Shown piece after piece: positions 4,572 to 6,576 of a stretch of 64,000 bases of DNA. Made by a program: the position numbers and the translations under genes. The DNA is from Flavihumibacter solisilvae (GTDB lineage: Bacteria; Bacteroidota; Bacteroidia; Chitinophagales; Chitinophagaceae). Each line of letters opens with the position of its first letter. The stretch's first letter is position 1. Below the pieces are notes generated by a model. The model had not been told where the DNA came from, ran no database searches, and saw only the letters and a program-made list of their open reading frames with translations. The DNA lies in the NCBI RefSeq assembly GCF_000814475.1, contig NZ_JSVC01000019.1, positions 1 to 64,000 on the forward strand. Reading direction: 5' to 3'.

Positions 4572-4784
4572 TTATTTTTTCACAGAATCAACAGCAGCTT
4601 TTGCGCTATCAACAGCAGCAGCAGCAGTAGAATCGATAGCAGCTTTAGCGCTATCAACAGTTGCAGTTACAGCAGAATCAACTGCAGCTACAGTTGAATC
4701 AGCAGCAGCTTCTTTAGAGTCAGCAGCATTGTTACAAGCCGCGAATGCAGCGCCAATAACCAGAACGAACAGGAGCTTTTTCAT
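4572..4784 (-). CDS. Small Ala/Asp/Ser-repeat lipoprotein
   Basis: 70 residues: a lipoprotein signal peptide with the lipobox AFAAC (Cys17), then a mature part made almost only of A, V, D, S, K and T. The pair DS recurs at residues 22, 29, 36, 44, 51, 59 and 66, spacings 7-7-8-7-8-7, i.e. 22 residues per three repeats, which matches an 11-residue (hendecad) helix. The protein ends VKK. It should be a single long helix hung from a membrane by its lipid. In layout (short lipid-anchored helix, basic C-terminus) it resembles Braun's lipoprotein, but there is no clear sequence relation. It is divergent from the sigma-factor gene 137 bp away and has its own terminator. Confidence 0.8.
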   Translation of the reverse strand: MKKLLFVLVIGAAFAACNNAADSKEAAADSTVAAVDSAVTATVDSAKAAIDSTAAAAVDSAKAAVDSVKK

Positions 4785-4921
4785 TTGATCTTTTTTTGTG
4801 TTTGAATGATTGATTTGGAGTTTATACCCGATTTGGAAAAAGGTAACCCGAAAAACCAGTTTTTTTTTTCAGGCTCACTTAAGGGTTACTATTTGTTATT
4901 TTGGGTATTAAATAAAGCAGC

Positions 4922-5491
4922 GTGAGCGCAGACCAAACAGAAAAAGAACTATTAAAAGGGCTGGCCGGGAACGACAGAAAGGCATCCGAAACCATTTATA
5001 AACAACATTATAATATGGTCCAGGCGCTTATAGTGAACAATAATGGCTCTGCAGAGGACGCAAGGGACATCTTCCAGGAAGCCATGCTTGTGCTGTATGA
5101 AAAGGCGAGGTCGGGCAATTTTGAACTAAACTGCCAACTGAAAACCTATATATATTCAGTTTGCAGGCGACTGTGGCTTAAGCGATTACAGCAATTACAG
5201 CGGTATTCCACTGAAATAGACGGTATCGCAGAGGTTGTTCAGGTAGAAGAAGACATGGAAAAACATGAAGCCCGTAACCTTGAATTCAGTGTCATGGAAA
5301 AGGCGCTGCTGAGTATCGGCGAACCCTGCAAGAGCTTGCTGGAAGCCTATTACCTGCAAAAAAGGAATATGGCCGACATCGCAGCAAGTTTCGGGTATAC
5401 AAATGCAGACAATGCTAAAAACCAGAAGTATAAGTGTCTTGCAAGGCTTAAAAAACTGTTTTTCGCTCAATATAAAAACCAGGTAGCATGA
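4922..5491 (+). CDS. ECF-type RNA polymerase sigma factor
   Basis: 189 residues from a GTG start. Region 2 is visible near residues 20-75 (YKQHYNMVQALI, GSAEDARDIFQEAMLVLYEKA), and region 4 near 120-180 (LLSIGEPCKSLLEAYYLQKRNMADIAASFGY) with a helix-turn-helix. Length and order fit the sigma-70 family sigma-24/ECF group of Bacteroidota. It directs RNA polymerase to a small set of promoters. Its last 4 bases overlap the start of the next gene (ATGA), a sign of translational coupling with its likely anti-sigma partner. No TAnnTTTG box is evident upstream, consistent with self-regulation, which is inferred. Confidence 0.9.
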   Translation: MSADQTEKELLKGLAGNDRKASETIYKQHYNMVQALIVNNNGSAEDARDIFQEAMLVLYEKARSGNFELNCQLKTYIYSVCRRLWLKRLQQLQRYSTEIDGIAEVVQVEEDMEKHEARNLEFSVMEKALLSIGEPCKSLLEAYYLQKRNMADIAASFGYTNADNAKNQKYKCLARLKKLFFAQYKNQVA

Positions 5492-6576
5492 CAGACGACA
5501 TGAATTTGATGGAAATGGTCGAAAGGTATGTCAGGGGGGAAATGGACCCGCAGGAAATGTCATATTTTGAATCTTTACGACGGGCAGATCCCGCCATAGA
5601 CCAGCTTGTCGTGGAGCATTCCATGTTCCTCCGCCAACTCAATGATTTCGGGGACAGAAAGGCATTTAAAACCGTGCTTGGTGAAACACATGAAAAATTG
5701 CTGGCGAATGGCGAAATCCGAACTGAGCAGCCGAAGGTCAGGGTGTTGCAAAAGTACAAAAGGGTGCTGGCAATGGCAGCGTCCATTGCGGGACTGACAG
5801 CCCTGGCAATCAGCGGACTGGTCAGCTATTTCACCCCGAAAAGCAGTCCTGTGGAAATTGCACAGCTTAAAAAAGAACTTAACGCTGTAAAAATCTCCCA
5901 AAAGCAGACCCAGAATGAAATTAATACCTTTAAAAACACTTCACCAAGGCCGGCAACGCCTGGTAAATTTGGTGGTACAGGCTTCCTGATTGATGGGAAA
6001 GGTTACCTGGTAACATCAGCTCACGTTGTTGCCAAAGCCGATTCAGTTTATATCGTTAATTCAAAAGGTGACTATTTCAAAGCCAAAACGATCCATGTAA
6101 ACGATAATACGGACATCGCTGTCCTGAAAATTACGGACAGCAGGTTTGAACCGGTCCAGAAGCTGCCCTATGGCATCCGGAAGGCGAAAGCAGATTTGGG
6201 TGAACAGATATTTACATTGGGGTACCCCCGTACTGAAATTGTGTACAACGAAGGCTATCTCAGTGCGAAAACCGGGTTCAATGGTGATACCGTTACCTAC
6301 CAGATCGCAATTTCAGCCAACCCGGGAAACTCCGGCGGTCCCATTTTCAACCAGTCTGGGGAAGTAATCGGGGTACTGAGCGGTAAACAATTAACTGCGG
6401 AAGGGGTGGTATTCAGCAGCCAGAGCAAGAATATTTTCAAGGCACTTGATTCTATAAGACATGACACCACAACATTCACGATAAAAATGCCAACCCATTC
6501 ATCTGTCAAAGGAATTGACCGGGTACAGCAGATCAAACGCATTGAAGACTGCATCTTCAATGTGATGAGTTATTGA
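5488..6576 (+). CDS. Anti-sigma-like / membrane / trypsin-like serine protease fusion
   Basis: 362 residues. Residues 1-90 look like a cytosolic anti-sigma region of the Bacteroidota kind (MVERYVRGEMDPQEMSYFE, then short helices). About 92-115 is one membrane helix. About 118-150 is a likely coiled coil. Residues 160-325 form an HtrA/trypsin-like protease domain with all three catalytic residues: His179 (TSAHVV), Asp209 (NTDIAVL) and Ser282 (GNSGGP). There is no PDZ domain; about 40 further residues follow. With an N-in topology the protease faces the periplasm. The start overlaps the sigma gene by 4 bp, so the pair should be made together. Domain calls are seen; anti-sigma activity is inferred from position and N-terminal pattern. 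Confidence 0.85.
   Translation: MTDDMNLMEMVERYVRGEMDPQEMSYFESLRRADPAIDQLVVEHSMFLRQLNDFGDRKAFKTVLGETHEKLLANGEIRTEQPKVRVLQKYKRVLAMAASIAGLTALAISGLVSYFTPKSSPVEIAQLKKELNAVKISQKQTQNEINTFKNTSPRPATPGKFGGTGFLIDGKGYLVTSAHVVAKADSVYIVNSKGDYFKAKTIHVNDNTDIAVLKITDSRFEPVQKLPYGIRKAKADLGEQIFTLGYPRTEIVYNEGYLSAKTGFNGDTVTYQIAISANPGNSGGPIFNQSGEVIGVLSGKQLTAEGVVFSSQSKNIFKALDSIRHDTTTFTIKMPTHSSVKGIDRVQQIKRIEDCIFNVMSY

Follow-up and report, generated by a model that had tools for sequence, protein, structure and literature searches.

Near the start of the window, by which we mean the whole 64,000-nucleotide stretch of Flavihumibacter solisilvae DNA analysed here, an ECF sigma factor gene (4922..5491, + strand; 189 aa, GTG start) is followed by a gene (5488..6576, + strand; 362 aa, ATG start) for an apparent fusion of an anti-sigma domain, a membrane helix and a DegS-like protease. 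The initial annotation had placed both reading frames here with a 4-bp overlap, and the sequence agrees, the shared bases being ATGA. The sigma factor scored 63.2 bits against TIGR02937 (cut-off 42.9) over profile positions 4–163 of 165, covering regions 2 and 4. Pfam Sigma70_r2 was also above cut-off (E 8e-9), with no Pfam region 4 match. A small Asp/Ser/Thr/Ala-rich lipoprotein, a conserved partner recognised through LPAM_1 and its relatives, is encoded divergently (4572..4784, − strand; 70 aa). Its lipobox lies below the LPAM_1 cut-off (16.7 bits, cut-off 20). Sequence and translation put the start of its ORF 137 bp from the sigma start, as originally described.

The AlphaFold model of the fusion (101 sequences; mean pLDDT 88.9, pTM 0.60) opens with a helical, anti-sigma-like domain (residues 1–75; 5488..5712, + strand), made up of helices 2–16, 21–33 and 35–73 and delimited by the model together with profile matches in the same genome. 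The membrane helix was set at residues 92–115 (5761..5832, + strand) from the model, hydrophobicity and the alignment; AlphaFold alone extends it over 89–115, and the most hydrophobic stretch is 94–112. A predicted periplasmic coiled-coil helix comes next (121–149; 5848..5934, + strand), so the model preserves the earlier reading of a membrane helix and then a coiled coil. The HtrA/DegS-type protease domain (161–326; 5968..6465, + strand) was delimited by Pfam, triad, alignment and fold search. Where DegS has its PDZ domain, the fusion ends in a conserved helix and strand (345–361; 6520..6570, + strand), modelled at pLDDT 92–98, with R345 and Q348 nearly invariant in the 101-row alignment.

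The protease with an intact triad and without PDZ, as first proposed, was upheld. Pfam matched Trypsin_2 at residues 163–296 (E 2.9e-24), enclosing His179 (codon 6022–6024), Asp209 (6112–6114) and Ser282 (6331–6333), all on the + strand, and listed no PDZ family up to an E-value of 1. All 95 distinct fusion proteins and all 101 aligned rows keep the triad unchanged, on which ground we rejected a dead protease; other invariant positions of that alignment include A97, G280, G283 and P285. The best PDB match of the fusion by E-value was DegS lacking its PDZ domain (2qf0_F, E 3.7e-13, TM 0.69 by target length). The fusion thus has the trypsin-like fold and His-Asp-Ser triad of HtrA/DegS (family S1C), and it missed the NCBIfam cut-offs for Do (86 of 416 bits) and DegS (60 of 423 bits); its protease part is DegS-like, not a DegS. 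Candidates for a sensor replacing PDZ are the helix and strand at the C-terminus or else the lipoprotein. A second full-length copy of the fusion in the genome was ruled out: the two other matches span only residues 153–299 and 162–315.

The gene pair is widespread. Of 294 genomes from the same family, 283 have a fusion match with an E-value of 1e-15 or below; in three of them it reaches only 1e-17 to 1e-19 and could be the protease domain alone. Among the matches listed in this search, down to E ∼1e-101, the query was covered almost entirely. Named relatives come from Flavihumibacter, Niastella, Segetibacter, Pinibacter, Longitalea and other Chitinophagaceae, with 78% identity to the fusion of F. 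stibioxidans. A sample of 149 genomes of the order held one genome outside the family (G348, locus L126) with a near full-length relative. In a class sample of 295 genomes, 43 carried one by a tally made by eye in which 5 of the 43 rows begin only at residue 14 or 70–83; seven belong to the same family and 36 to nine other families. At L153, L154, L155 and L157 (families f88, f70 and f61) the match begins at query residue 70–83, and the N-terminal part has diverged. Remaining matches in the order and class samples are to the protease part, and the 11 that were fetched (L129–L139) have no such adjoining sigma gene; these, and the protease matches L002 and L003 of the same genome, are left out of the 149-locus counts given below. 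Some loci represent one genome present in two collections, the first 110 loci yielding 95 distinct proteins.

The fusion gene is immediately preceded by a same-strand sigma gene in 148 of the 149 loci; at the lone exception, L156, the locus meets a contig end. The gap between the genes ranges from −17 to +94 bases and is most commonly −4 (42 loci). This rules out chance juxtaposition of the two genes. The conservation of the pair, on which the initial annotation had let its reading depend, was confirmed, and the search it had proposed for the same domain order beside ECF sigma genes in other Bacteroidota genomes was positive.

We built a profile of fusion residues 1–91 from 30 rows and ran it on the F. 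solisilvae genome, where it gave seven non-self matches at E up to 1. Singly these matches are weak (E 0.0045 to 0.51). Five of the seven follow a same-strand ECF sigma match at a distance of 47–195 bases; the genome has 47 ECF sigma matches above cut-off in 5.4 Mb, from which we estimate the chance of such placement at well under 1% for each. Six matches are the N-termini of proteins with a hydrophobic helix next: four are FecR proteins by Pfam, of which three directly follow an ECF sigma gene; another ends in TonB_C, and the last has no family above cut-off. The seventh falls inside a 562-aa ORF that we take to be MutL, from its sequence. A protein with a similar N-terminus and TonB_C (L195:1468-2592) lies behind another ECF sigma gene of this genome and is perhaps a second unusual anti-sigma fusion.

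Curated families gave less. No anti-sigma family of Pfam or NCBIfam was above cut-off in the window protein or in its relatives' N-termini. Below cut-off, relatives matched PF13490 (zf-HC2; 17.8 of 22.2 bits, L140) and NF052375 (anti-sigma; 15.8 of 100, L103), and the window protein itself gave neither a zf-HC2 nor an NCBIfam anti-sigma match. Pfam presumably includes a model of the RsgI N-terminal domain; no RsgI family was found in the whole fusion (Pfam, E up to 1) or in seven N-termini (E up to 10). FecR and FecR_C domains were likewise not found by Pfam in the fusion, whereas four of its profile relatives have FecR. With six of seven profile matches being FecR-type or sigma-linked membrane proteins, relationship to known anti-sigma domains argues that the fusion N-terminus is of anti-sigma type. 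In 136 of the 149 loci the side preceding the membrane helix has more Lys and Arg than the side following it; the two sides are equal in eight loci and reversed in five. This bias predicts an N-in topology. On this charge bias we rejected an N-terminus outside the cytosol, a finding that the initial annotation had named as fatal to its view; its cytosolic anti-sigma-like segment is supported by the profile relatives and the predicted topology.

We also modelled a sigma factor together with the N-terminal domain of its fusion partner. Some relatives have the two genes in one frame, and we folded the sigma factor and N-terminal domain of L074 as one chain with the stop read through (19 paired, 57 sigma and 69 N-terminal rows; no control fold). 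The model reached pLDDT 87.3 and pTM 0.82. Such a pTM despite low-confidence linkers suggests that sigma region 2, region 4 and the N-terminal domain are packed in a defined way. The sigma part resembled ECF sigma factors whose structures were determined together with an anti-sigma partner (4cxf, Z 8.3, rmsd 2.7, 87 aligned; 5wur, Z 8.1, rmsd 2.9, 95 aligned), a likeness that holds domain by domain, not overall, with Z values (best 8.3) in a range common for helical models. A fold search with the combined model gave no match at E 0.001 or better; ECF sigma chains top the list. The whole sigma part superposed poorly on the sigmaE of the RseA complex (1or7_A, TM 0.39 by target length), leaving an RseA-like arrangement without support. 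The comparison that gave these Z values covered mostly residues 3–190; the anti-sigma part is left with no fold match, which excludes none. Coupling analysis of 176 distinct sigma-fusion pairs leaned to residues 1–75 over the protease, with too faint a signal for an interface to be mapped: the 50 strongest pairs between the two genes include 21 in residues 1–75 (1.67-fold) and 19 in the protease (0.78-fold), and the top 20 include seven (1.39-fold) and nine (0.92-fold), respectively. None of the three findings by which the initial annotation would have been refuted turned up, the evidence on a sigma interface being indirect.

The region separating the sigma gene from the divergent lipoprotein gene contains two mirror-image copies of GGGTTAC-N15-GTATWAA. 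One, GGGTTAC-N15-GTATTAA (4883..4911, + strand), is the predicted sigma-dependent promoter of the sigma-fusion operon; the other, GGGTTAC-N15-GTATAAA (4821..4849, − strand), is that of the lipoprotein gene. Of 147 usable upstream regions, 138 have GGGTTAC no more than 80 bases from the sigma start, compared with a mean of 0.32 and a maximum of 3 in 200 shuffles; six of the nine regions lacking it have GGGTGAC. Both boxes, with a few variants allowed, are present in 137 regions, with a spacer of 15 in 113 and of 16 in 24. The predicted −10 box ends 10 bases before the sigma GTG start (window 4905–4922), and in the 137 relatives with both boxes the distance from −10 to the chosen start is −1 to 19 bases, often 3 or 10. 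This short distance makes a nearly leaderless sigma mRNA probable. In 102 of the 147 regions there is an inverted −35-like box (GGTAACC or AGTAACCC) no more than 150 bases away, and both motif orientations are found in 95. Searching the open-licence literature for GGGTTAC with a sigma factor returned one unrelated paper only.

By our reading, the ORF nearest on the divergent side encodes a lipoprotein-like protein of 55–93 aa with an acidic Ser/Thr/Ala-rich tail at 100 of the 102 loci that have the inverted box; L076 has no such ORF and L077 has another ORF. The initial annotation had raised the lipoprotein as a possible target. The promoter motif that its gene has in common with the sigma gene, in mirrored form, makes this probable, and puts both the sigma operon and the lipoprotein gene probably under the same sigma factor. 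An extra lipoprotein copy with its own promoter occurs away from the sigma gene (L287:1123-1338), and L306 and L307 each have two lipoprotein genes, each with its own copy of the promoter.

We searched for further sites genome-wide. Allowing one mismatch, the F. solisilvae genome gave six more sites of related pattern against four matches of the reversed control, so these six may be chance. The exact motif was found in 96 of 117 genomes of the family, with 16 reversed-control matches. Another family had it in 37 of 41 genomes, at 83 sites compared with 4 for the control; the counts of sites and control matches are our own. At 60 loci taken from both motif searches there were 86 distinct sites, of which 44 lead to a sigma gene, 32 to a lipoprotein, one to a CBM-like protein and nine elsewhere. 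From the family-search list we picked by hand another 20 sites that are not at the sigma gene; these precede six proteins of 141–146 aa, five CBM48-like proteins of 96 aa, one lipoprotein copy and eight others or none. The 141–146 aa proteins look secreted and are of one kind, starting 111–182 bases past the promoter (L269, L270, L272, L276, L280, L286); the four scanned have no Pfam family above cut-off. The 96-aa proteins (L274, L275, L279, L281, L288) stand behind the same promoter in other genera, and both of those scanned have AMPK1_CBM above cut-off, placing a module of glycogen-binding type in the predicted regulon.

Within the genus of the window, a third promoter site precedes a CBM48-like/HhH protein of 201–221 aa at seven loci of sister species (L224, L230, L232, L229, L235, L236, L220). 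The one scanned has HHH_5 above cut-off and CBM models below. This target was not found in the F. solisilvae genome; an empty result of such a search is by itself no evidence of absence. Judging by promoter conservation, the targets of the sigma factor very probably include the sigma-fusion operon and the lipoprotein gene, along with a few more genes that vary from genus to genus.

Several known systems resemble parts of this one. One is the sigmaE system of E. coli, where the available text describes a membrane anti-sigma factor, RseA, that is cut outside by DegS, a periplasmic HtrA-type site-1 protease, then within the membrane by RseP, ClpXP clearing the rest (PMC7593790). The closest solved fold of the fusion's protease part is DegS-deltaPDZ. 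RseA and DegS are two proteins and the signal passes through the DegS PDZ domain, whereas the fusion is one chain with no PDZ match; we propose, by analogy, that the fusion could work like RseA plus DegS in one chain. HtrAw of Brevibacillus sp. WF146 is a membrane-anchored HtrA that, given substrate, is reported to cut off its own N-terminal membrane anchor, between molecules; it has PDZ, and the accessible portions of that report mention neither an anti-sigma domain nor a linked sigma gene (PMC5359297).

Other regulators share the N-terminal side of the design. FecR-type regulators of Bacteroidota have the related N-terminal domain and membrane helix, and an ECF sigma gene directly precedes three of the four in this genome, but they have periplasmic FecR and FecR_C domains where the fusion has a protease. 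Dma of Bacteroides, said in the available text to occur only among Bacteroidota (PMC13088901), and a similar Phocaeicola pair (PMC9308784) are also large, unusual anti-sigma factors; as those sources describe them, they span both membranes, with an outer-membrane beta-barrel in Phocaeicola, whereas the fusion ends in a protease. IutY of Pseudomonas putida is a one-piece ECF signalling protein too, but according to the text available it joins sigma to anti-sigma, not anti-sigma to protease (PMC7593790).

The nearest described case we found is RsgI9 of Clostridium thermocellum, of another sigma class. As far as the available text goes, this anti-sigma-I factor has a membrane helix that contains xAA, as in the fusion, and its outer domain is S1C protease-like; it is a SigI/RsgI member without a sigma gene paired to it, the autocleavage reported for it takes place in the RsgI-type periplasmic domain, and its S1C domain is reported to bind polysaccharide (PMC12203970). 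The initial annotation held the fusion to be an undescribed system. This stands for ECF factors, in that the portions of the open-licence literature searched describe no ECF anti-sigma/protease fusion, and needs qualifying in that RsgI9 already combines an anti-sigma-I factor with an S1C domain. The gene neighbourhood may already be listed in ECF classification work.

On balance we favour a reading in which the second gene encodes an anti-sigma factor joined to its own site-1 protease and feeding intramembrane proteolysis. Residues 1–75 would hold the ECF sigma factor in the cytosol, and a single membrane helix, predicted to have its N-terminus inside, would lead to the periplasmic coiled coil and the DegS-like protease without PDZ. 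An envelope signal would switch the protease on to cut its own coiled-coil stretch, or that of a neighbouring subunit, with helix 121–149 as the candidate site. The shortened stub would then be cut within the membrane by an RseP-like M50 protease, and its remainder degraded in the cytosol through an exposed xAA end, freeing the sigma factor. Going by promoter conservation, the freed factor would act on the sigma-fusion operon, on the lipoprotein gene that diverges from it and on a small number of others. The sequences show the domain composition, the conserved pair and triad and the shared promoter; we infer the inhibition of the sigma factor, the cleavage, the intramembrane step and the signal. 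The fusion's membrane helix has A97 in all 101 aligned rows with A98 nearly invariant, and a hydrophobic-Ala-Ala-Ser/Ala motif is present in 119 of the 149 loci. The available account of RsgI helices with xAA has two of them recognised by ClpXP in chimeras (PMC12203970). The genome encodes one M50 protease. Self-release by a membrane HtrA, the xAA motif and the single M50 protease together favour coiled-coil cleavage by the protein itself or its neighbour as the first step. Against this explanation count the lack of a curated anti-sigma match above cut-off, the individually weak profile matches, the weak couplings, the poor superposition on sigmaE and, without PDZ, the absence of signal sensing in the DegS style.

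A less probable reading, still to be taken seriously, keeps the fusion as an anti-sigma factor but has its protease act on other periplasmic proteins or serve as a ligand-binding sensor, with the site-1 cut made by another protease or the sigma factor released by a conformational change. HtrA proteases mostly break down damaged proteins, and two other places in this genome match the protease domain. The polysaccharide binding reported, in the text available, for the protease-like domain of RsgI9 (PMC12203970) would suit a sensor. A mere binding domain is nonetheless opposed by the invariant triad, and with the protease fused beside the stretch to be cut, self-cleavage would be the simplest design.

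Four FecR proteins among the N-terminal profile relatives suggest a further explanation, drawing on this type, which is able both to inhibit and to be required for activity. We consider it improbable; a short helical domain, a membrane helix and a periplasmic protease would better suit a design of inhibitor plus cleavage. Envelope-stress sigma factors are known to control HtrA-type proteases (as sigmaE does DegP), but that the fusion is just a membrane-anchored periplasmic protease co-transcribed with and induced by the sigma factor, its N-terminus otherwise employed, is very improbable given the little or no gap between the genes in 148 of 149 loci and an N-terminal profile that points to sigma-linked proteins.

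An anti-sigma factor joined to its own site-1 protease would place sensor, first protease and inhibitor seemingly in one protein. More tentatively, and with the odds rather against it, the pair could be a self-contained envelope-sensing circuit, near-universal in one Bacteroidota family and found in nine more of the families sampled from the class, in which the anti-sigma factor is its own site-1 protease, the state of that protease alone sets sigma release, and a small, disordered lipoprotein expressed from the mirrored promoter acts back on the protease, whether as its ligand, a decoy or a substrate. In the text available, only 6% of Bacteroidota ECF sigma factors are reported with a class I anti-sigma neighbour (PMC7406223). 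Here the clear promoter motif, the few candidate targets and the one catalytic residue make the anti-sigma switch-off directly testable. Given the strength of its conservation, the pair may be a core envelope-stress system of these bacteria.
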